Assembly: GCA_018304445.1 (NCBI GenBank)
Contig: JAGVWD010000026.1
Span: forward strand, 1 to 7,855
Length of the DNA: 7,855 nt
Source of the DNA: Candidatus Iainarchaeum sp.
GTDB lineage: Archaea > Iainarchaeota > Iainarchaeia > Iainarchaeales > JAXPJC01
Direction: 5' to 3'
Shown here: piece by piece, positions 1 through 7,855 of the stretch
Numbering within the stretch: the first letter of the stretch is position 1
Layout: each line of letters opens with the position of its first letter
Translations under genes and position numbers: made by a program
The notes under the pieces: model-generated
The model's database searches: none
What the model was told of the DNA's origin: nothing
The model's input: the letters and a program-made list of their open reading frames with translations, nothing else

Positions 1-1
1 G

Positions 2-1498
2 AATTACACTGCGCTCGCGCCCGTTGGCATAAGCGCCTATGTGCCTGCGGACGGGGAAATAATTGAAATGGCATACTCCGACTGGCCGGGCGATACTGCG
101 CTTACAGTGAATGTAAAGGATTCAGGCAATAATGCAATTGAAAACGCACAAATCTATTTGAATGGAATTCTAATTGGGAATACAAATGCGCAGGGCGCAT
201 TAAGCAAGAGCCTTACGCTCAAAAAAGACACTTATGAGATAAAGGCTAAAAAGGACACAAGCGAAAAAACTGCCTCAATCACTGTTGTTGATTATTCAGC
301 AATAACTGCAAATTTAGTTTTGGAAGATTCAACTGCAAGGGCGCTCAATTGGCTGCTTACGCATCAGGACAGCTCTGGGCAGATTGGAACGCATGCGGTA
401 TGGGGGAATGCGTTTGCGCTGATGGCGCTCAGCCTGTTTTCAGGTAATGACACTGTAAAAACAAATGCAATGAATTATCTCCTTGCAAACCAGGGGGATG
501 ACGCGGGCTTCGGATACCCCGGATTCGGAAGCGATGTGCTTCATACTGCAGTTTCAGCAATGGCGCTTATCTCGAATGGAAAACAGCTGCAGGAATTTGC
601 GAAAAACGGTAAAACCTCAACAGAATATATGCTTTCAAACCAAATCAGCGACGGGGGCTTCGGATATGGGGCAAGCGATGTTGATACAACCTCATGGAGC
701 GCGGTTGCGTTTGCGCAATCCGGACAGCAACAGCCAACGGTAAATTCAAAAACGCCGAAGGATTTTCTGTTAAGCGCCCAGAACAGCGATGGCGGCTTTC
801 CATACAATGCGGGCGGGGCGAGCAGCGTAGAGTACAGCGCCGAAGCATTAATCGGGCTTAAGGCTGCAAATTATGCGAAGGATTCCAAAATAACAAATGC
901 AATAAATTATCTGCGCGCAGGGCAAAGTGCGAATGGGTGCTTCTCAAATGCATACACAACTTCATTAAGCGCGATTGCGCTCATTGCATACGGGGAGGAT
1001 GCGAATTCTGCAATTGCCTGCCTTAAAACCTTGCAATTAAGCGATGGGGGTTTCGCGCGTTCTGGAAGCACTGGCAATTCTGTTGATACTGCTGCCGCAA
1101 TCATTGCAATTTCCGAAAAGACTTTCCCTTTGAGCACATCAAGCACGAGCTCTGATTCAAATGGAGTTGCGCCGCTTAACAGCGTTGTGAAGTTTGTTGT
1201 TCCCATTACAAACACAGGAAAGCACAAGGCTACAGATGTTTATGCGCAGATTCCGGGAATAAATGCAAATTGGATTCTGGAGGGGAGCTCCACAAGGTCA
1301 TTTTCGGAAATAAATCCCAATGAGACAAAAAACGCGGTAATTTATGTGAAGATGCAGAGCGTTGGGGAAATCAACATAAGGGCCGAAATAACTGCAAACG
1401 AGCTTGTGGGCGCCGCATCAACAAATTACGTGAAGGTCCTGGTTGAGGCAATTACGCTCCTTGCGAGCATGTATGTTGACTCCATCACTCAGGGATAA
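2..1498 (+). CDS. Secreted protein with six alpha-alpha toroid (prenyltransferase-like) repeats, 5' partial
   Basis: The frame is open to the left edge, so the N-terminus and any signal peptide lie outside the window; GTG 41 is only an internal codon. The visible part has three regions. First, a beta-rich segment (about nt 95-290) resembles carboxypeptidase-regulatory or PEGA-type surface domains. Second, six helical-hairpin repeats begin near nt 341, 467, 617, 755, 899 and 1013; each has a helix followed by a turn such as QGDDAGFGY, QISDGGFGY, QNSDGGFPY or QLSDGGFAR, then an Ala-rich helix. Third, a CARDB/APHP-like beta-sandwich (about nt 1175-1450) contains the typical 'ITNTGKHKATDVYAQIPG' pattern. 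Six such repeats form a closed alpha6-alpha6 barrel, as in squalene-cyclase-like folds and in cobalamin-binding intrinsic factor. No acidic DxDD-type cyclase motif is obvious, so ligand binding is more likely than cyclisation. No C-terminal membrane anchor is seen. The DUF4430 and ECF genes downstream suggest a role in extracellular ligand capture; that is inference. Confidence 0.8.
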   Translation, partial: NYTALAPVGISAYVPADGEIIEMAYSDWPGDTALTVNVKDSGNNAIENAQIYLNGILIGNTNAQGALSKSLTLKKDTYEIKAKKDTSEKTASITVVDYSAITANLVLEDSTARALNWLLTHQDSSGQIGTHAVWGNAFALMALSLFSGNDTVKTNAMNYLLANQGDDAGFGYPGFGSDVLHTAVSAMALISNGKQLQEFAKNGKTSTEYMLSNQISDGGFGYGASDVDTTSWSAVAFAQSGQQQPTVNSKTPKDFLLSAQNSDGGFPYNAGGASSVEYSAEALIGLKAANYAKDSKITNAINYLRAGQSANGCFSNAYTTSLSAIALIAYGEDANSAIACLKTLQLSDGGFARSGSTGNSVDTAAAIIAISEKTFPLSTSSTSSDSNGVAPLNSVVKFVVPITNTGKHKATDVYAQIPGINANWILEGSSTRSFSEINPNETKNAVIYVKMQSVGEINIRAEITANELVGAASTNYVKVLVEAITLLASMYVDSITQG

Positions 1499-1514
1499 GG
1501 GTATAATGCCCTTA

Positions 1515-1564
1515 TAAAACATCAAGCACGCAAGGTTTGCAAGCAAAGTGTGCTTGATGTTTTA
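1515..1564. terminator. Strong hairpin between the toroid gene and the downstream operon
   Basis: A perfect 15-bp inverted repeat has arms at 1515-1529 (TAAAACATCAAGCAC) and 1550-1564 (GTGCTTGATGTTTTA), separated by a 20-nt loop that holds a smaller GCAA/TTGC pairing. It starts 16 nt after the toroid stop codon, and the 3' arm ends in GATGTTTTA, so it could terminate transcription. It also overlaps a TATA-like TTATAAAA at 1512-1519, so an operator or a mobile palindromic repeat are alternatives. Confidence 0.6.
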
Positions 1565-1586
1565 ATGAACCCCAAGTTTGTTTCCC

Positions 1587-1592
1587 AGGTGA
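1587..1592 (+). promoter_or_regulatory. Ribosome binding site for the 1597 gene
   Basis: AGGTGA lies 4 nt before ATG 1597. It supports translation from this ATG and marks the start of the downstream gene group. Confidence 0.55.
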
Positions 1593-1596
1593 AAAA

Positions 1597-2097
1597 ATGA
1601 ATATTGTCGCGCTGAAGGTTTTTGCGGCTGTTGCTGCTATTTTTCTCGGGAGCGCGGCGATTACCCTTGTTATTGTAAATCCTAATGTGAATGCGTTTGC
1701 AGCACTTATTTTTGGGAACGGAGTGGGCGCGCAGGGCAATGGAAACAGCCTTGAAGCAGGATTGGCCGCAAACGGGAATTCCGCAGATGATAAAAATGCG
1801 GGCAGCGGCGCCGGCGCCAATGGAATTTCAAGCTCCCTTTCCTATGAGGTTATGGGCTTCACAAGGCTGGATGCTAATTTGCTTGCGGAGCAGGAAATTC
1901 CTGAATGCCCAAATTCTGCAGATTTAACAGTAAGGATAAGGAATTCTGGAAAATATGCCGCGGAGAAAATATCCATAGGCGCAAACTCCGGCCGCGGAAA
2001 GGGAAATAAAAATGAAATTGTGCAAATCCTCTGGGCAGGGGCTGGAGATTGCAATTTCGGCAGTAAATGCAAACCCTATCGAATTAAAAACAAATAA
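1597..2097 (+). CDS. Small membrane-anchored or secreted protein, possibly frameshifted at its C-terminus
   Basis: The family is not recognised. The product has 166 residues. Residues 1-40 form a hydrophobic signal-anchor or signal peptide (VFAAVAAIFLGSAAITLVIV). Residues 41-80 are a low-complexity Gly/Asn/Ala/Ser linker. From about residue 95 a beta-sandwich begins with a pattern like CARDB domains (ADLTVRIRNSGKYAAEKISI), similar in style to the last domain of the upstream toroid protein. The last 14 residues (GSKCKPYRIKNK and neighbours) look unlike a beta domain, while the +1 frame from 2060 reads AVNANPIELKTNNAE and stops at 2105-2107, just before the next gene. A one-base indel near 2058-2062 would explain this. 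The gene is probably co-transcribed with the regulator and ECF genes. An outward-facing accessory role in ligand capture is inference. Confidence 0.6.
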   Translation: MNIVALKVFAAVAAIFLGSAAITLVIVNPNVNAFAALIFGNGVGAQGNGNSLEAGLAANGNSADDKNAGSGAGANGISSSLSYEVMGFTRLDANLLAEQEIPECPNSADLTVRIRNSGKYAAEKISIGANSGRGKGNKNEIVQILWAGAGDCNFGSKCKPYRIKNK

Positions 2098-2110
2098 TGC
2101 AGAATAATAA

Positions 2111-2704
2111 ATGGATGCGGGAAAAATGGGAGCAATTGACCCTGGGCTGAATGTTGCGAATTTTTACGCGCTTGAGGCGCTTTATTTGCTCAGCAGGAAG
2201 GCAATAAGCAGGCGCAAGCTGATGCTGGAACTGGGATTGAGCGAGAGCAAGACCCGCACGCTGCTGCAGCATATGCAAGGAATAAAATACATAAAGCCAA
2301 CAACGAAGGGATATGCCCTTACTGAAAAGGGGATGAAGGGCGCGCTGAAGCTGCAGGGAATAATAAAGGACATGAAAAGCATTGATTTGGGGAATCTAAT
2401 AGATTCCAGGAAGGGATTTGCCCTGCACGCCAAGCATCTAAGGAGCGGCATGCGCACCTATGAGATAAGGGACATTGCAATCAAGGCGGGCGCAGAAGGC
2501 GCGCTGGTCCTGAGGGCATCGAACAACGGGCTGAAGTTTGTTGATCCCGCAACAAGGGAATACGAGCAGAAGCTGCACAGCATAGAAAGGCAGCTGAAGG
2601 GGCTGCGGAACAATGACACTGTAATAGTCAGCTTTGCGCAGAATGCAGAGAATGCAAAGGCGGGGCTTTGGAACATAATTGAGAATCTGATAAATGCGGG
2701 CTGA
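2111..2704 (+). CDS. Winged-helix transcriptional regulator, probably DUF4443 type
   Basis: The product has 197 residues. Residues 15-75 fit a winged helix-turn-helix: a helix (FYALEALYLLSRK), a second helix (SRRKLMLELG), a recognition helix (SESKTRTLLQHMQG) and a wing ending in GYALTEKG. Residues 115-195 form an alpha/beta domain (IRDIAIKAGAEGALVLRAS, then NDTVIVSFAQNAENAKAGL) resembling the archaeal DUF4443 domain, which is thought to be a ligand-sensing or oligomerisation module. The assignment comes from remembered family pattern, not a search. The start at ATG 2111 has no clear ribosome binding site; ATG 2126 is an alternative. The gene begins 13 nt after the preceding stop and overlaps the ECF gene by 11 nt, so it is translationally linked to the transporter. 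It is a good candidate to regulate the locus, perhaps through the imported ligand. Confidence 0.7.
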   Translation: MDAGKMGAIDPGLNVANFYALEALYLLSRKAISRRKLMLELGLSESKTRTLLQHMQGIKYIKPTTKGYALTEKGMKGALKLQGIIKDMKSIDLGNLIDSRKGFALHAKHLRSGMRTYEIRDIAIKAGAEGALVLRASNNGLKFVDPATREYEQKLHSIERQLKGLRNNDTVIVSFAQNAENAKAGLWNIIENLINAG

Positions 2705-3416
2705 GAAAATGGAAAAGGAAAAAAAGAGAAGCGCGCACGCGGTTGCGGAGCAGCAGGAAAGGGCAAGGGAAAAGCAGGACGCCTCGCTCAAGGGAATTGC
2801 GCGCCTGTGGAGGGAAGCGAAAGCAAAAAAGGAATTGCGCAATTTTGCAATATTCGCTGGCTTGCTTTCTGCTGCAGTTGCGGGAAGGGTTGCACTGCAG
2901 TATGTCCCTTCGGTTGAGCCCATAATTCCATTTGCAGTTCTTGCCGGTTTGCTGCTCGGAGTGAAGGAAGGATTTACTGTTGGGGGCGCGGCCTACATAA
3001 TCTCAAATTTCTTCATCTGGGGGTTGCAGGGCCCATGGACAGTATTCCAGGCAATTGGCGCGGCATTTCCAGGGGCATTTGCGGGAATTTTCGGGAAAGT
3101 AAAAAAGCCGAGCACTTGGGACCTTGTGTGGATTTCGCTTGCGGGAACGATATTTTTTGAAATAGTGATGAACATTTCCGGGGCGTTTATGGGCATCGGA
3201 TTGCTGGGCGCGTTTTCAATATTCATGATTCCCCTGTATTTTGCCACTTCACTCCCATTTTCCATTACGCACATAATTACAAATGTAATATTCGCACGGG
3301 CGTTTGCTCCGCTGTTAAAATTAAGGAGGCATGAGGATGAACTCAAAATCATTAGCTATATTAGGCATAATCCTGATGGCACTAGTGCTAACATCAGGGT
3401 GTATAAAGCAGAGTGA
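2694..3416 (+). CDS. ECF transporter S component (substrate-binding membrane subunit), possibly corrinoid-specific
   Basis: The product has 240 residues and several membrane segments, roughly residues 51-70, 77-90, 95-110, 115-133, 143-160, 165-185 and 187-205. The stretch VALQYVPSVEPIIPFAVLAG followed by GVKEGFTVGGAAYIISNFF and LQGPWTVFQ matches the pattern of S components in energy-coupling-factor uptake systems, including predicted cobalamin-type members. S components bind the vitamin and dock on a shared EcfT-EcfA module; no EcfA or EcfT gene is in the window. Two oddities stand out: a charged, probably coiled N-terminal extension of about 48 residues, and a C-terminal tail of about 26 residues encoded in the overlap with the next gene. 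ATG 2694 overlaps the regulator stop; ATG 2709 is also possible, and neither has a strong ribosome binding site. Corrinoid specificity is inferred from the DUF4430 and toroid neighbours. Confidence 0.75.
   Translation: MRAEKMEKEKKRSAHAVAEQQERAREKQDASLKGIARLWREAKAKKELRNFAIFAGLLSAAVAGRVALQYVPSVEPIIPFAVLAGLLLGVKEGFTVGGAAYIISNFFIWGLQGPWTVFQAIGAAFPGAFAGIFGKVKKPSTWDLVWISLAGTIFFEIVMNISGAFMGIGLLGAFSIFMIPLYFATSLPFSITHIITNVIFARAFAPLLKLRRHEDELKIISYIRHNPDGTSANIRVYKAE
3323..3329 (+). promoter_or_regulatory. Ribosome binding site that sets the DUF4430 start
   Basis: AAGGAGG ends 7 nt before ATG 3337 but only 1 nt before ATG 3331. The spacing favours 3337. The site lies inside the ECF S-component gene. Confidence 0.75.
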
Positions 3417-3744
3417 AGATCCGCTTTCATTGGAAAAGGTGAATTTCCAGCTGCTGATTGAGGCAAATGGGGAGGAAACCTCGCAAAGCATTTCGGTTCC
3501 AAAAGGAACAAATGCGCTTGAGGCAATGAAAATGCTTGCTGACGTTAATTACTCAACCTCGGCATTCGGGGCGTTTGTAACATCAATAAACGGCATTGCA
3601 AATACTTCAGACAGCTACTGGCTTTTCTGGATTGAGGGGAAATTCGCTGAAAAGGCGATTGATGCATATTCGATAAACGGGGACACTGTCGTGATATGGC
3701 GCTTCCTGGATGCTGAGGAGAGCAAGAAATTCTGGGGAAGTTAA
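3337..3744 (+). CDS. DUF4430 lipoprotein (transcobalamin-type beta domain)
   Basis: From ATG 3337 the product has 135 residues. Residues 1-21 are a lipoprotein signal peptide (SLAILGIILMALVLTSG) with the putative lipidated Cys at 22. Residues 35-123 carry the DUF4430 pattern: a VPKGTNALEAMKML segment, then GAFVTSINGIANTSDSYWLFWIEGKFAEKA and a final GDTVVIWRF strand. This fold forms the C-terminal half of intrinsic factor and transcobalamin, where it closes over B12 together with an alpha6-alpha6 barrel. Here it is a separate membrane-tethered protein, and the toroid domain is encoded at the start of the window. The gene overlaps the ECF S-component gene by 80 nt in another frame, which indicates tight co-expression. 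Expected role: hand the captured ligand to the ECF permease at the outer face of the membrane. DUF4430 also occurs in proteins of unknown ligand, so B12 binding is not proven. Confidence 0.8.
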   Translation: MNSKSLAILGIILMALVLTSGCIKQSEDPLSLEKVNFQLLIEANGEETSQSISVPKGTNALEAMKMLADVNYSTSAFGAFVTSINGIANTSDSYWLFWIEGKFAEKAIDAYSINGDTVVIWRFLDAEESKKFWGS

Positions 3745-3770
3745 TTGGTTTGAGTGAGGGAAAGAGCAGG

Positions 3771-3810
3771 GCAATATAATTGCAGCATTATATATTGCAG
3801 TTTATATTGC
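3771..3810. repeat. Three adjacent GCA-N(7/8)-TGC boxes, candidate operator
   Basis: The boxes are GCAATATAATTGC (3771-3783, a palindrome with GCAAT/ATTGC arms), GCATTATATATTGC (3785-3798) and GCAGTTTATATTGC (3797-3810). They are arranged head to tail at 12-14 nt spacing. The pattern looks like a cooperative regulator-binding site for nrdD expression; no binding protein can be named. Confidence 0.4.
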
Positions 3811-4032
3811 ATCCTGCGCTTCCATACTGCGGATTAGTGGAAAGTATATGCTGCAGTTTATATTCACGCAGGGATGAAAGCAATCTGAATGCGCCTTGCC
3901 TGATGCCGATTGGCAAATCTAACTCATGTGAAACATATTTCTGATGAAAGTTTGCAAAGGAGCGTTTTTGCGCTTAAAAACTTTATTTTCCAAATATAAA
4001 CTCCGCAATAATAAACCTTTATTAATGCTTCA

Positions 4033-4044
4033 GCAGTTTATATT
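4033..4044 (+). promoter_or_regulatory. Probable nrdD promoter (TATA-like box)
   Basis: TTTATATT at 4037-4044, within the third GCAGTTTATATT copy, is centred about 44 nt before ATG 4084. With the usual archaeal spacing of about 26 nt, transcription would start near 4066, just before the GAGGG ribosome binding site at 4069-4073. This also argues against the upstream TTG 4063 as start codon. Confidence 0.5.
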
Positions 4045-4083
4045 TCAGAAACCTAATTTTTATTGCCTGAGGGAAGCGGAAAA

Positions 4084-6123
4084 ATGAAAAAAGCGCAAAG
4101 CATCAAGTATGTCAAGAAGCGCGACGGGAGGACTGTAAAGTTCGACCCCTCCAATGTGGAAGAGGCAATTTTCAAGGCGGCGGTTGCTGTTGGCGGCCAT
4201 GACCGGGAGATGGCAAAGGCGATTGCCGAAAGTGTTGAAAAGGAAGCCAATAAGCAGTTTTCCGGCGCAATTCCGAGCGTCGAGCAGATCCAGGATATTG
4301 TTGAGAATGTGCTCATAAAGGAAGGGCATGCAAAAACAGCAAAGGCATACATCCTCTACAGGCAGAAGCGCGCCGAGATGAGGGAAAGCGCGGCATTCCT
4401 TAAGAAAATAAACGGCATTGTGGACCAGTATGTTGTAAAGAGCGACTGGAGGGTTAGGGAGAACAGCAATGCCAATTATGCGCTTTCAGGGCTGCAGGCG
4501 CACATTTCTGGAGCCGTAATCGCGGAGTATGCGTTAAGGAACATTTATCCATCAGAAATAGGAAAGGCACACAGGGACGGGGATTTGCACATTCATGATT
4601 TGGGGAACGGAACCTTCTCAGGATATTGCGCGGGCTGGAGTCTGCACCAATTGCTTGAAGTTGGCTTCGGCGGAATTGCAAATGTGGTTTCGGCAAAGCC
4701 AGCAAAGCATTTGAATGCGCTGCTTGGGCAGATGATTAATTTCATTGGCACTCTGCAGAACGAATGGGCCGGGGCGCAGGCGTTCTCCTCTTTCGACACT
4801 TATCTCGCGCCATTTGTAGCAAAGGACAATCTTGACTACAAAAAGGTCAAGCAGTCAGTCCAGGAATTTGTTTTTGCAGCCAATGCCACTTCCCGCTGGG
4901 GAAACCAGGTTCCGTTTTCAAATATTACCCTTGATTGGAAAGTTCCCGAAGACATGCAGGCTGAGCATGTTCTTTATGGGGGGAAGCTATTGCAGGATGA
5001 AACCTATTCAGATTACCAGGACGAAATGGACCTTATCAACAAGGCATTCATTGAAACAATGCTTGAGGGCGATGCAAAAGGCAGGACATTTACGTTCCCA
5101 ATTCCCACTTACAACATCACAAGGGATTTTGACTGGGATACCGAGAATGCGCAGCTGCTGTTTGAGCTTACTTCAAAGTACGGCACCCCCTATTTCCAGA
5201 ATTTCATAAACTCTTCCTTGAAGCCAAGTGATGTGAGGAGCATGTGCTGCAGATTGCAGCTGAATCTGAAGGAACTTGAGGCAAAAACAGGGGGATTGTT
5301 CGGAAGCGGGGAGAAAACTGGCTCCGTTGGAGTAGTAACAATAAACATGCCGCGCATCGGCTTCAATGCTAAGGGAAATGATGAGAAATTCTTTGAGCGC
5401 CTGGGGCACCTAATGCTGCTTGCAAAGGAATCGCTCGAGATAAAACGCAAGGAAGTTTCAAAGAACATGGAAGCAGGGCTGCTCCCCTGGAGCAAGCATT
5501 ATCTTGGAACGCTTGATTACCATTTCACAACAATCGGGCTTGTGGGAATGCATGAGGCCTGCCTGAATTTCCTCGGGAAGGGGATTGAAACCCGGGAAGG
5601 GAAGAAATTTGCGGAGAGGGCGCTTGATTTCATGAGGGAAAGGCTTGTTGAATTCCAGAAGGAAACTGGGCACATTTACAATTTGGAGGCAACGCCTGCA
5701 GAAGGCACTTCCTACAGGCTTGCAAGGATTGACAGGAAAAAACTGCCGAACATAATAACAGCCGGCAAGAAGGAGCCCTATTACACAAATTCCACGCACC
5801 TTCCAGTCAGCCACACTGATGATATTTTTGAGGCTCTCCAGCACCAGGATGCCCTGCAGACCAAATATTCCGGAGGGACTGTCCTGCATGGATTTATCGG
5901 GGAACAGATAAGCAGCTATGAGGCGTGCCGGAAGCTTGTGAAGAAAATTGCCTATAATTTCAGATTGCCATATTATACGATCACACCAACTTTCAGTGTG
6001 TGCCCCGTCCATGGCTATGTGAAGGGCGAGCATTTCAGCTGCCCGATGGAAATTGAAAAACCATCAACTGAAAATAAAAAGGAGGTGCTTGTGAATGAGC
6101 TCAAAGTGCAATGCGTCCACTGA
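4084..6123 (+). CDS. nrdD: Anaerobic ribonucleoside-triphosphate reductase NrdD, core without glycyl-radical domain
   Basis: From ATG 4084 (GAGGG at 4069-4073) the product has 679 residues. It reduces ribonucleotides to deoxyribonucleotides under anaerobic conditions. Residues 3-94 are an ATP-cone (YVKKRDGRTVKFDPSNVEEA), the allosteric activity domain. The rest is the class III catalytic barrel: HRDGDLHIHDLG at 163-174, YCAGWSLHQLL at 181-191 with Cys182, NEWAGAQAFSSFDTYLAPF near 226-244, SMCCRLQLN at 386-394 with the probable thiyl-radical Cys (388 or 389), EATPAEGTSYRLARID at 535-550 and YYTNSTHLPV at 566-575. Zinc-site residues Cys640, His643 and Cys653 are present, but the expected next Cys after CP is Met655. 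The protein stops at Cys677-Val-His without the RVVGY glycyl-radical motif, which is encoded by the next, overlapping gene. Canonical NrdD proteins carry it in the same chain. Confidence 0.95.
   Translation: MKKAQSIKYVKKRDGRTVKFDPSNVEEAIFKAAVAVGGHDREMAKAIAESVEKEANKQFSGAIPSVEQIQDIVENVLIKEGHAKTAKAYILYRQKRAEMRESAAFLKKINGIVDQYVVKSDWRVRENSNANYALSGLQAHISGAVIAEYALRNIYPSEIGKAHRDGDLHIHDLGNGTFSGYCAGWSLHQLLEVGFGGIANVVSAKPAKHLNALLGQMINFIGTLQNEWAGAQAFSSFDTYLAPFVAKDNLDYKKVKQSVQEFVFAANATSRWGNQVPFSNITLDWKVPEDMQAEHVLYGGKLLQDETYSDYQDEMDLINKAFIETMLEGDAKGRTFTFPIPTYNITRDFDWDTENAQLLFELTSKYGTPYFQNFINSSLKPSDVRSMCCRLQLNLKELEAKTGGLFGSGEKTGSVGVVTINMPRIGFNAKGNDEKFFERLGHLMLLAKESLEIKRKEVSKNMEAGLLPWSKHYLGTLDYHFTTIGLVGMHEACLNFLGKGIETREGKKFAERALDFMRERLVEFQKETGHIYNLEATPAEGTSYRLARIDRKKLPNIITAGKKEPYYTNSTHLPVSHTDDIFEALQHQDALQTKYSGGTVLHGFIGEQISSYEACRKLVKKIAYNFRLPYYTITPTFSVCPVHGYVKGEHFSCPMEIEKPSTENKKEVLVNELKVQCVH
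6081..6087 (+). promoter_or_regulatory. Internal ribosome binding site for the radical-domain gene
   Basis: GGAGGTG lies inside the 3' end of nrdD and ends 7 nt before ATG 6095. A TGA in the ATG frame at 6092-6094 directly precedes the ATG, so the small frame cannot be entered from upstream of this point. Together these indicate independent initiation, probably coupled to ribosomes finishing nrdD. Confidence 0.8.
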
Positions 6124-6256
6124 AGTGTACAGCAGAGTTGTTGGCTACTTCAGGCCTGTCCAGAACTGGAATTCCGGAAAGCAGGAGGAATTCTCGGAGC
6201 GCAAGGAATATTCGGAGCAGAAATCCCTTGCGAAAATCCCCGAACTGAAGGCGTAA
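6095..6256 (+). CDS. Detached glycyl-radical subunit of anaerobic ribonucleotide reductase
   Basis: This 53-residue product is the missing C-terminus of NrdD. It reads MSSKCNAST, then EVYSRVVGYFRPVQNWNSG, then KQEEFSERKEY and a short tail. The RVVGY segment followed by RPVQNWNxGKQEEF is the class III glycyl-radical motif, so Gly17 is the predicted radical site activated by NrdG. Cys5 sits where the last zinc-knuckle Cys of an intact NrdD would be, and may complete the zinc site whose other ligands are on the large chain. The gene overlaps nrdD by 29 nt in the +1 frame and has a strong ribosome binding site 7 nt upstream. The arrangement resembles the free-standing glycyl-radical domain of GrcA (YfiD) for pyruvate formate-lyase, though here the domain appears to be an obligatory subunit. 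A sequencing indel or a late +1 frameshift at 6095-6123 are the alternatives. It is too short for standard gene-length cut-offs. Confidence 0.85.
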   Translation: MSSKCNASTEVYSRVVGYFRPVQNWNSGKQEEFSERKEYSEQKSLAKIPELKA

Positions 6257-6270
6257 ATGCGATTTGCAGC

Positions 6271-6308
6271 GGCTTGTCTTTCAACAGGCCTTTCTGCCTA
6301 TTTCTTAC
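6271..6308 (+). terminator. Hairpin plus pyrimidine tract after the nrdD unit
   Basis: GGCTTGT (6271-6277) pairs with ACAGGCC (6284-6290) over 7 bp including one G-U pair, with a 6-nt loop. A T/C-rich run (TTTCTGCCTATTTCTT) follows. It starts 14 nt after the radical-subunit stop codon and is a plausible terminator separating nrdD from the toxin-antitoxin module. Confidence 0.5.
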
Positions 6309-6334
6309 TTGTAAGAAAGGTTTATTAATAACCT
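6301..6334. promoter_or_regulatory. Palindromic operator and TATA box of the toxin-antitoxin module
   Basis: A perfect palindrome TTTCTTAC-TT-GTAAGAAA spans 6301-6318. It abuts the TATA-like TTTATTAATA at 6321-6330, which is itself flanked by AGGTT (6318-6322) and AACCT (6330-6334). The TATA box is about 38 nt before ATG 6364. A palindrome touching the promoter is what AbrB-type antitoxin autorepression would need. Confidence 0.55.
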
Positions 6335-6363
6335 GCGTACCTATTAATGCAGGGGGTGCTTGA

Positions 6364-6621
6364 ATGCAACATATGCGTCAGATTGTTGAAACAACAAAAA
6401 TGTCTACAAAAGGGCAGATAGTAATCCCAAAGGAAACAAGGGAATTGACCGGCAGCAGGGAGAATACAATATTTACCGTGCTTCCCCTGGACAGGAAAAC
6501 AATAGTATTAAGGAAAGTGGACAGGGATGAAATTGCAGGGCAATTCAGGGCGTTGAGGGCAAGGGTAAAGGGCAAGATTTCAGAGGCTGAAGTGAATGCA
6601 ATCATCCACAAAGCAAGATAG
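6364..6621 (+). CDS. AbrB/MazE-type antitoxin (swapped-hairpin DNA-binding protein)
   Basis: The product has 85 residues. Residues 8-50 match the AbrB/SpoVT fold: TKMSTKGQIVIPKETRELTG, then a beta strand pair (NTIFTVLPLDRKTIVLRKVD). Residues 55-85 form a basic amphipathic helix that probably wraps the toxin. A GGGGGTG ribosome binding site (6352-6358) lies 5 nt before ATG 6364; Met4 and Met13 are less well placed. The gene overlaps the PIN toxin gene by 26 nt, the usual antitoxin-first order. The protein should neutralise the PIN ribonuclease and repress its own promoter, probably at the palindrome upstream. Confidence 0.88.
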   Translation: MQHMRQIVETTKMSTKGQIVIPKETRELTGSRENTIFTVLPLDRKTIVLRKVDRDEIAGQFRALRARVKGKISEAEVNAIIHKAR

Positions 6622-6988
6622 AGCGCGGGTTGTTCTTGACACGAACATTGTTGTTTCAGCGCTTATTGCAAAGGAAGGCGCATCAGCAAGGTTGTTTGAA
6701 AAACTTATTCTGGGAGAGATAGAGAATTATACAAACAAGGAAATTATCGCTGAGTTAAAGGAAGTTTTCGGCAGGAAGGAAATAACAGAAAGAACAACAA
6801 AAACCGCTAGAAAATTTGTTATAAGGGAATATCTGAATAATTCAATTCAAATTGCCGCAAAAGCAAGAGTTAATGTTGTTGAGCACCTGCAGGATAACAA
6901 GTTCATTGAAACCTGCCTGGATGCTGGCATTCCATGTCTCATTACAGGAGACCAGCATTTGCTGAAACTAAAAGAATTCTTGGAGTAG
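6596..6988 (+). CDS. PIN-domain toxin ribonuclease (COG1569-like)
   Basis: The product has 130 residues, about the normal length for a small PIN toxin. The fold is marked by VVLDTNIVVSALI at 12-24 (Asp15), a helix with Glu53/Glu56 (EIIAELKEVFG), LQDNKFIETCLDAG at 98-111 (Asp100) and LITGDQHLLKL at 115-125 (Asp119). These acidic residues form the metal-binding nuclease site, and all appear present, so the toxin is probably active on RNA. The layout fits the archaeal and bacterial 'PIN family toxin component' group. GAGG at 6583-6586 lies 9 nt before ATG 6596, inside the antitoxin gene, so the pair is translationally coupled. The target RNA cannot be read from the sequence. Confidence 0.88.
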   Translation: MQSSTKQDRARVVLDTNIVVSALIAKEGASARLFEKLILGEIENYTNKEIIAELKEVFGRKEITERTTKTARKFVIREYLNNSIQIAAKARVNVVEHLQDNKFIETCLDAGIPCLITGDQHLLKLKEFLE

Positions 6989-6997
6989 CAATATTGC
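6988..6997. promoter_or_regulatory. Palindrome in the nrdG leader
   Basis: GCAATATTGC is a perfect 10-nt palindrome in the 47-nt gap before nrdG. It shares GCAATAT and ATTGC with the boxes upstream of nrdD (3771-3810). It may be part of the nrdG promoter or a shared operator. A TATA-like CATTTATTT (7004-7012) follows. Confidence 0.35.
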
Positions 6998-7035
6998 AAT
7001 ACGCATTTATTTGAGTTTCCACGGAGCAGTATATT

Positions 7036-7734
7036 ATGGACATACACGGCCTGCAGAAGGTTACGCTGATTGATTTCCCCAAGCAAGTTGCCTGTACAGT
7101 CTTCCTTGACAGGTGCAATTTCCGCTGCGGCTTCTGCTTCAACCCCAAGCTTGCGCTCGGGAAGGAAACAAACTTCAATATGCAGGGGCGGGAATTCTTT
7201 GAATTCCTAGAAAAAAGGAAAAATCTCCTTGACGGGGTCTGCATTACAGGGGGGGAGCCCACGATGCATCCCGAACTTGCGGAATTCTGCGGAAAAATAA
7301 AGGGAATGGGCTTTTTGGTCAAGCTTGACACAAACGGCAGCAATCCCGGAATGCTTAAAACACTAATAAACAAAAAACTGGTTGATTACATTGCAATGGA
7401 CATTAAGGCGCCATTGGAGAAATATGATGAAATAGTGGGCGCAAAAGTGAACAAGGAGGCAATAAGGGAGAGCATTGCGCTGATAATGAATTCGGGAATT
7501 GATTACGAGTTCCGCTCAACGCTCCTTCCAAAATTCCATTCCGCGCAGGACATGGAAAAAATGGCTTCAATGGTTGAGGGCGCTGATTTGTACTGCCTGC
7601 AGCAGTTCAATCCGAATGCTGAAATGATTGATAATGAATTAAAAAAAGAAAGAAAATTCATAAAAGAAGAGCTTGAGGCGCTGAAGAAAATTGCCGAAAG
7701 GTATGTTAAGAAAGTGGAGCTGCGCGGAATTTGA
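7036..7734 (+). CDS. nrdG: Anaerobic ribonucleotide reductase activating protein (radical SAM, NrdG2 type)
   Basis: The product has 232 residues and is a radical-SAM enzyme that cleaves S-adenosylmethionine to make the glycyl radical on anaerobic ribonucleotide reductase. It opens with HGLQKVTLIDFP and VACTVFLDRCNFRCGFC, where Cys27, Cys31 and Cys34 form the CxxxCxxC site for the 4Fe-4S cluster. TGGEPT at 71-76 is the SAM-binding glycine motif, VKLDTNGSNP at 95-104 and DYIAMDIKAP at 117-126 are typical of the NrdG2/pyruvate-formate-lyase-activase branch. A GGAG at 7023-7026 lies 9 nt before ATG 7036. In this locus its substrate would be Gly17 of the detached 53-residue subunit (6095-6256) rather than a Gly on the NrdD core. 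It is separated from nrdD by the toxin-antitoxin module, so it probably has its own promoter. Confidence 0.93.
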   Translation: MDIHGLQKVTLIDFPKQVACTVFLDRCNFRCGFCFNPKLALGKETNFNMQGREFFEFLEKRKNLLDGVCITGGEPTMHPELAEFCGKIKGMGFLVKLDTNGSNPGMLKTLINKKLVDYIAMDIKAPLEKYDEIVGAKVNKEAIRESIALIMNSGIDYEFRSTLLPKFHSAQDMEKMASMVEGADLYCLQQFNPNAEMIDNELKKERKFIKEELEALKKIAERYVKKVELRGI

Positions 7735-7758
7735 TTTTGCGCTTTGTACCATAATCAC

Positions 7759-7766
7759 TTTTAAAT
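7759..7766 (+). promoter_or_regulatory. TATA-like box for the last, partial gene
   Basis: TTTTAAAT is centred about 28 nt before ATG 7791. With standard archaeal spacing the transcript would start at or next to the ATG. No ribosome binding site is visible, which fits a leaderless mRNA. Confidence 0.45.
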
Positions 7767-7790
7767 GTTGCGTGCAATAGTATTTCACAC

Positions 7791-7855
7791 ATGCAGCGCG
7801 AGAAAAATTACGAGATATTCTTCGGACTGCTTGCAAACAAATTCAAGCAGCGCAT
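7791..7855 (+). CDS. Start of an unrecognised gene, 3' partial
   Basis: An ATG at 7791 opens a frame that runs without stop to the window edge: 21 complete codons reading MQREKNYEIFFGLLANKFKQR. The segment is too short to assign a family; it suggests an amphipathic, basic N-terminus. The nearby TATA-like box and lack of a ribosome binding site suggest a leaderless transcript. It could still be a chance frame. Confidence 0.45.
   Translation, partial: MQREKNYEIFFGLLANKFKQR

Follow-up and report, generated by a model that had tools for sequence, protein, structure and literature searches.

A probable two-chain class III ribonucleotide reductase in Candidatus Iainarchaeum sp., with the glycyl-radical domain encoded by a separate 53-residue gene

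Gene organization of the locus

We analysed a stretch of 7,855 nucleotides (nt) from the archaeon Candidatus Iainarchaeum sp. (assembly GCA_018304445.1, contig JAGVWD010000026.1, positions 1 to 7,855 of the forward strand), called the window below, in which nrdD, the gene for class III ribonucleotide reductase, is divided into a long core gene and a gene of 53 residues that carries the glycyl-radical domain. A first-pass annotation of the sequence had claimed this split, and it was confirmed by direct reading, by the junction of two Pfam matches and by a closely related protein, P0001. The features of the locus are as follows (aa, amino acids).

4084-6123, plus strand: nrdD core, class III ribonucleotide reductase without glycyl-radical loop, 679 aa (Pfam NRDD 1-525 of 562 plus ATP-cone; NF006126)
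4105-4374, plus strand: ATP-cone of the core, residues 8-97 (PF03477, E 2.6e-23)
5245-5250, plus strand: finger-loop Cys-Cys (SMCCRL), the expected thiyl-radical site (sequence reading; invariant C385 and C386)
6001-6042, plus strand: presumed zinc half-site in the core, formed by Cys 6001-6003, His 6010-6012 and Cys 6040-6042 (sequence; comparison with the Thermotoga ligands)
6046-6123, plus strand: variable tail of the core beyond zinc ligand 3; its last 29 nt are shared with the small gene
6081-6087, plus strand: Shine-Dalgarno sequence GGAGGTG of the small gene, within the core frame
6095-6256, plus strand: predicted separate glycyl-radical subunit, 53 aa (Pfam NRDD 526-562 of 562)
6107-6109, plus strand: presumed zinc ligand 4, Cys5 in the small chain (zinc-ligand census)
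6143-6145, plus strand: predicted site of the radical, Gly17 in the RVVGY motif of the small chain (sequence, invariant column)
7036-7734, plus strand: nrdG2, a radical-SAM activase that would generate the radical (TIGR02495; score 204.9 bits, cut-off 131.15)

The core frame begins with ATG 4084, TTG 4063 being a possible alternative, and stops at TGA 6121-6123. It matched NF006126 with 1014.7 bits over model positions 3-647 of 684, and its finger-loop columns C385 and C386 were invariant in 49 aligned sequences. In the Pfam model NRDD (562 positions), the match of the core ends at position 525 and that of the small chain begins at 526. The small frame is shifted by +1 relative to the core and ends at TAA 6254-6256. 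Its initiation site is seen in the sequence just as the annotation had described it: TGA 6092-6094 stands directly before ATG 6095, and GGAGGTG lies 7 nt upstream. The glycyl-radical motif EVYSRVVGYFRPVQNWN begins at 6122 and has its glycine codon at 6143-6145; nine residues of the small chain (E10, S13, R14, G17, Y18, R20, P21, W25 and N26) were invariant in 14 sequences. The activase gene nrdG2 follows 0.8 kb downstream in the same window.

The window holds the NrdD core, ATP-cone, finger-loop cysteine and NrdG activase of a class III reductase, while the glycyl-radical motif is found on a separate 53-aa chain instead of at the C-terminus of the same chain. The four zinc ligands between barrel and glycine loop, recognized by sequence only, are divided, the core having three of them and the small chain the fourth. 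The annotation had the core ending before its radical motif, and this stands in that the motif is on the small chain, but the cut itself falls inside the zinc ribbon, so that Cys 6107-6109, presumed to be the fourth zinc ligand, is also on the small chain.

Relatives of the small chain and selection on its frame

A search of 5.8 billion proteins with the 53-residue chain returned 247 short relatives, 120 of which were listed. P0001, the closest among the matches listed, is 91% identical across the same 53 residues and was seen as a protein only, its locus being out of view. Most of the 33 relatives that were inspected start with Met, a few residues and Lys/Glu-Cys, followed by TEVYSRVVGYFRP or a near variant, and a second group among them is without this Cys. 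Names attached to some of the listed relatives were Diapherotrites, Micrarchaeota, Saganbacteria, Margulisiibacteriota, Spirochaetota and Thermodesulfobacteriaceae. With a Spirochaetota protein of 60 residues as query, 876 short relatives were found, and two of the 120 listed are on contigs longer than 3 Mb. Since the loci of these database proteins were not in view, some of them may be fragments from contig ends.

Searching with the core gave 15 genome loci, one of which (L014) ends before the C-terminus. Behind the core, the radical domain is a separate frame in five of the other 14 and fused in nine. One locus has both forms: in L005 (genome G005, 3998-8995), a second frame, fused to a radical domain, starts about 0.8 kb downstream of a split nrdD pair on the same contig. 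Two loci, L001 and L006, have the same two-gene layout as the window, with best segments 73% identical. The annotation had looked to close relatives with one continuous frame as evidence against a genuine split; such fused relatives were found (L002, L003 and L118 among them), yet the closest relatives found, L001, L006 and P0001, are split.

In the motif region, pN/pS (the ratio of non-synonymous to synonymous differences) was 0.15 in the frame of the small gene and 1.6 and 1.9 in the other two frames (35 independent pairs). Sequencing error and a pseudogene were ruled out by P0001, by the many split relatives and by this ratio. The annotation's view that the split is not simple decay also held, given the intact small gene with its strong start site, the purifying selection and the split relatives. 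Taken together, these comparisons demonstrate, at the level of sequence, that the parts of one NrdD are spread over two conserved genes on which purifying selection acts.

Split nrdD genes in other genomes

Survey genomes were drawn from the phyla of the named DPANN loci, reached from the loci found with the core; we take these phyla to be DPANN from the titles of the centre loci. Matches to the 53-residue chain, fused or not, were present in 50 of 87, 45 of 295, 95 of 371 and 82 of 287 genomes (the 287 set overlaps the 371 set). In Actinomycetota, the radical domain was fused in four of four genomes.

A script classified 219 cellular places into 137 linked splits (distinct places with a core within 400 nt, the window included), 62 fused places, 14 without a core within 400 nt and 6 at contig ends. 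A stricter recount lowered the fused places to 60 and left the other three classes unchanged; two fused places had been counted twice in this classification, in the neighbour census described below and possibly in the tree. Because only part of the fused places were retrieved, the ratio of 137 to 60-62 should not be read as a frequency in the population. All of the 131 linked cores above 330 aa in length fit the loose finger-loop pattern CCR/CGR.

The script obtained a usable start for the small gene in all but 9 of the 137 linked splits. Among these 128, the small gene is in frame 0, 1 or 2 relative to the core in 26, 48 and 54 cases; its start overlaps the core in 66, lies 0-60 nt after it in 50 and further away in 12 (median distance -1 nt, farthest 339 nt downstream). 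A Shine-Dalgarno match of at least 5 nt precedes 108 of the 128 starts vs 3.6% of 1255 internal ATGs, a comparison in which the start codon with the best Shine-Dalgarno match was picked in each small frame and the controls were single ATGs.

The radical glycine is kept in 156 of the 157 cellular places that are not fused (137 linked, 14 unlinked and 6 at contig ends). A strict radical-motif pattern fitted 154 of them; when the three misses were read by eye, L186 and L181 proved to keep the glycine and L152 to have lost it. In L152 (2991-3266, minus strand; genome G524), a separate domain of type C (see below) reads RVVWYY; tryptophan replaces the radical glycine, so that no glycyl radical is possible there. 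Genome G524 has two further copies of the radical domain, both with glycine.

On a tree of the core only (FastTree, 187 sequences, midpoint-rooted), the fused or split state required 19 parsimony changes, compared with a mean of 50.5 after shuffling. A fused clade (L027, L029, L030, L038 and L118) is sister to two splits (node support 0.997), and the clade that encloses this group holds 19 splits, including the window (support 0.991). The members of the fused clade have a short insert between zinc ligands 3 and 4 that looks like a scar of re-fusion. Judged from these comparisons, the window is one case of a widespread, repeatedly evolved two-gene class III reductase. As a separate observation, unusually long or interrupted nrdD cores, candidates for inteins or introns, were seen in L123, L127, L179, L187, L256 and the viral contig G880.

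The zinc ribbon and the position of the cut

In Thermotoga NrdD, the motif CxxxHx6CxxC, located between the final barrel strand and the glycine loop, binds the zinc (PMC4493059). The radical domain of the Prevotella copri enzyme is made up of a zinc site, the glycine loop and a tail; with deoxyadenosine triphosphate, this domain is disordered (PMC11226230).

Three positions of the cut were found among the splits: after ligand 3 (type A, as in the window), after ligand 4 (type B) and between the two CxxC halves (type C). In a census by pattern of 119 linked splits with a C-x2-H...C core, at least one chain always offers a fourth ligand: the small chain only in 49, the core only in 54 (49 Cys, 5 His), both in 16 and neither in none. 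In all 49 small-chain-only cases the Cys comes after a start codon. The small-chain Cys of L224 and L178 is upstream of any start codon, so these two count as core-only and 'both' falls from 16 to 14. Each chain carries a CxxC in 11 of 11 type C splits. Of the remaining linked splits, one (L174) has lost all the ligands, five could not be scored and one has no anchor motif. Because the ligand set is split over two genes, with the partner supplying the missing member, we infer that a zinc ribbon shared between both chains is the best explanation.

An AlphaFold model of a natural fused relative, L118 (the fused NrdD of genome G025), had a mean predicted local distance difference test score (pLDDT) of 87.8, and its best PDB matches were class III reductases. 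Confidence falls locally to a block mean of 72 over residues 651-660, in the insert between zinc ligands 3 and 4 at which relatives are cut; the lowest stretch of the model is elsewhere (394-405). No solved structure resembling the 53-residue chain alone was found at E 1.

Unlinked radical domains and viral copies

Four genomes (G025, G028, G588 and G414) have an extra, unlinked radical domain of type A or A-like, in addition to a linked or fused one. The gene order around these orphans is as follows.

G025 orphan: Fur, rubrerythrin, domain, peroxiredoxin; ATGA overlap with the rubrerythrin gene
G028 orphan: Fur, rubrerythrin, domain, CDGSH protein; ATGA overlap with the rubrerythrin gene
G588 orphan: Fur, domain, then several rubrerythrins; ATGA overlap with the Fur gene
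G414 orphan: DUF1858 protein, domain, glutaredoxin, peroxiredoxin; ATGA overlap with the DUF1858 gene

The main NrdD of G025 is fused and complete, so its orphan domain coexists with a complete enzyme. Of Fur genes above the cut-off, the draft genomes of G025 and G028 have only the one next to the orphan, that of G588 has one more besides it, and that of G414 has none. Rubrerythrin matches at E 0.001 numbered 2 to 6 per genome in the four. The zinc layout of the orphan fits the core of its own genome in 4/4, and only G588 discriminates: there, both the orphan and the linked small chain are without the zinc cysteine, and the core has His instead. In three of the four genomes, the orphan is not the closest match to the genome's own domain. 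With an orphan as query, no new small-frame place was seen in 352 genomes of the order of G414, and the family of G588 consists of that genome only.

In the neighbour census, which covered 1.4 to 3 kb on either side of a place (only about 1.5 kb for many linked or fused loci), homologues of Fur, rubrerythrin or peroxiredoxin were nearby at 4 of 13 unlinked, 0 of 116 linked and 0 of 45 fused places; for each of the four orphans, the nearest oxidative-stress gene is within 0.7 kb. Glutaredoxin was the only such neighbour at six places among the linked and fused ones. The query proteins of the census had been chosen from the orphan loci after inspection, so its Fisher value of 1.9e-5 is post hoc, and the Pfam scans and whole-genome Fur counts are the more independent part of the context evidence. 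Oxidative-stress context as a general rule for unlinked domains was rejected, since it holds for only 4 of 13. A tenth unlinked domain without an oxidative-stress neighbour in view has short flanks. The unlinked domains outside such a context include extra copies in G524, G540, G525 and G623, each of which has a linked copy.

A scan of IMG/VR with the 53-residue chain gave 68 loci, of which 7 were fused, 1 was linked and 60 had no core within 400 nt. At least 4 kb of upstream sequence was in view for 49 of these 60, and L258 has a core 1370 nt away. Furthermore, 41 of the 50 domain-bearing viral contigs of at least 18 kb had no core match at E 0.001. These contigs are linear, often fragments, and viral by the IMG/VR classification. 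Among annotated phages (INPHARED), three records matched and gave no stand-alone case: two have the core match immediately adjacent to the domain, to which it seems to be fused, and the annotation of the third is that of a reductase. No dedicated PHROG for the small domain was found at E 0.001 with the 8 proteins scanned, which matched families of the NrdD large subunit only. Because the contigs are often fragments and the annotated phages provided no stand-alone case, the viral evidence is suggestive only. In three viral loci (L275, L266 and L299), the small frame of the stand-alone domain has two CxxC pairs ahead of the domain that look like a full zinc ribbon belonging to the domain itself.

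Other features of the window

Between the radical-domain gene and nrdG2, Pfam identified a MazE-like gene (6364-6621) and a PIN_3 gene (6596-6988) that overlap like a toxin-antitoxin pair. Downstream of the first reading frame, a perfect 14-bp inverted repeat (arms 1517-1530 and 1550-1563, by eye) is a possible terminator.

Discussion

We propose that the window encodes a two-chain class III ribonucleotide reductase, made of a complete NrdD core and a 53-residue glycyl-radical subunit that likely dock by a shared zinc ribbon, and we give this reading a probability of about 85%. Translation of the small chain would begin at a start codon of its own within the 3' end of nrdD. Most likely the chains dock by completing one zinc ribbon, to which the core would contribute Cys, His and Cys and the small chain a Cys; docking would place the glycine loop against the finger loop, and NrdG2 would then install the radical. 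That both chains form one enzyme activated by NrdG2 we hold with high confidence from the gene content, and docking through the shared ribbon with moderate confidence from the ligand pattern. As oxygen destroys such enzymes at the glycine, the small chain could be a cheap part that is replaceable after oxygen damage. Three observations weigh against these proposals. In L174 (genome G617), the presumed zinc ligands are lost on both chains and the separate radical domain is kept, so that shared zinc is not universal; a possible fourth ligand is present on both chains in 14 scored cases; and of the 13 unlinked domains that had 1.4 kb or more of flank on both sides, 9 (7 of them type C) showed no oxidative-stress neighbour.

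GrcA duplicates the C-terminal end of pyruvate formate-lyase (PFL). The sole Pfam match of the window's small chain at E 0.001 was NRDD, and no homology to the PFL C-terminus was found, so the chain is not a GrcA by descent. It resembles GrcA/YfiD and Y06I of phage T4 in being a small chain that bears the glycyl-radical domain of a presumed target enzyme, and the orphan and core-less viral NrdD domains mirror GrcA and Y06I (PMC8683613, PMC12338860). It differs from GrcA/YfiD in belonging to the NrdD family and not to PFL, in its size (53 aa vs the 14-kDa YfiD) and in that the main enzyme of the window is without any radical domain of its own. Only YfiD and Y06I, both of them spare parts for PFL, have been validated, and spare parts for other enzymes were called 'tempting to speculate' about (PMC8683613).

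With known NrdD proteins (PF13597, TIGR02487, NF006126), the window shares the core family, the ATP-cone, the finger-loop cysteines, the zinc-ribbon ligands as far as sequence tells, the radical motif and a nearby NrdG. The difference is that here the radical domain is a gene of its own and the ribbon appears divided over two chains, whereas the Thermotoga and Prevotella papers describe it within one chain. A reductase chain divided into two genes is also known from the split class II NrdJa/NrdJb (PMC9669993), which belongs to the B12-dependent class. No separate NrdD radical domain was described in the titles or abstract openings among the literature matches listed, which were mostly non-subscription literature, nor in the excerpts of PMC8683613, PMC12338860, PMC12288474, PMC4493059, PMC11226230, PMC9669993, PMC9531940, PMC4390871 and PMC11528403.

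The two-chain enzyme could work with or without exchange of its small chain. In a constitutive two-subunit enzyme, a chance break in a tolerant surface loop would have divided nrdD, and the two parts would simply co-fold, with no role in repair; we put this just short of an even chance. Linkage of 137 of the 157 not-fused cellular places to a core within 400 nt suggests co-expression, the 19 fused/split changes and the fused clade nested among splits are as expected of near-neutral change, and the glycyl-radical domain is naturally mobile in the Prevotella copri enzyme (PMC11226230). An enzyme of this kind leaves unexplained why genomes with a linked or fused domain have further unlinked copies, why four of these copies show ATGA overlaps and Fur/rubrerythrin neighbours, and why viral copies occur without a core.

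Alternatively, cells may produce surplus small chains, or produce them under oxidative stress, and use them to renew NrdD ends cleaved by oxygen, as GrcA does for PFL; the odds of this likewise fall slightly below even. The backbone of class III reductase is cleaved by oxygen (PMC12288474). The ATGA overlaps of the four orphans beside oxidative-stress genes, the position of the sole or one of two Fur genes next to three of them, the complete fused NrdD of G025, the fit of each orphan's zinc layout to its own core (with G588 discriminating) and the viral contigs with a domain and no core match all favour such a system. Against it, there are only four such loci, found post hoc; 9 of 13 unlinked domains, including the extra copies in four further genomes, are outside such a context; G414 has no Fur above the cut-off; the viral contigs are fragments and the annotated phages gave no stand-alone case; and three of the four orphans are not closest to the domain of their own genome. 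That programmed +1 frameshifting or a sequencing error fuses both frames into one NrdD is very improbable: the frames of the window do overlap by 29 nt at an offset of +1, but the small gene of relatives occurs in all three frames, after in-frame stops and across gaps as well as overlaps, the window's own +1 frame has TGA directly before the ATG, and P0001 is a 53-residue protein in its own right. As a general explanation, frameshifting is refuted by this mix together with the Shine-Dalgarno sequences and start codons; a slip site was not searched for.

For the two-chain enzyme proposed here, we see near even odds that free small chains replace oxygen-cleaved ones in the way that YfiD/GrcA serves pyruvate formate-lyase. 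This repair idea, already raised in the annotation, is plausible, its support from context coming from other genomes and applying least of all to the organism of the window; relatives with an extra domain in Fur, rubrerythrin or peroxiredoxin neighbourhoods look like users of the replacement option. More tentatively, and with the balance of our judgement leaning against it, free NrdD radical domains might form a general spare-part system, docking by the zinc ribbon, renewing the reductase from archaeal Fur/rubrerythrin operons and keeping the host reductase working for viruses.

The small gene is easily overlooked: such chains score 22-43 bits, compared with NCBIfam NrdD cut-offs of 326-585 bits, and some source names call the proteins hypothetical. 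A large phylogeny of ribonucleotide reductases discarded sequences shorter than 400 residues (PMC9531940). If the chains assemble via a divided zinc ribbon, one cysteine would be a handle on movement of the radical domain, on docking and on recognition by NrdG. Swapping of the radical tip is suggested here for the reductase from which anaerobes obtain their DNA precursors, and the gene pairs found offer a way to test it.

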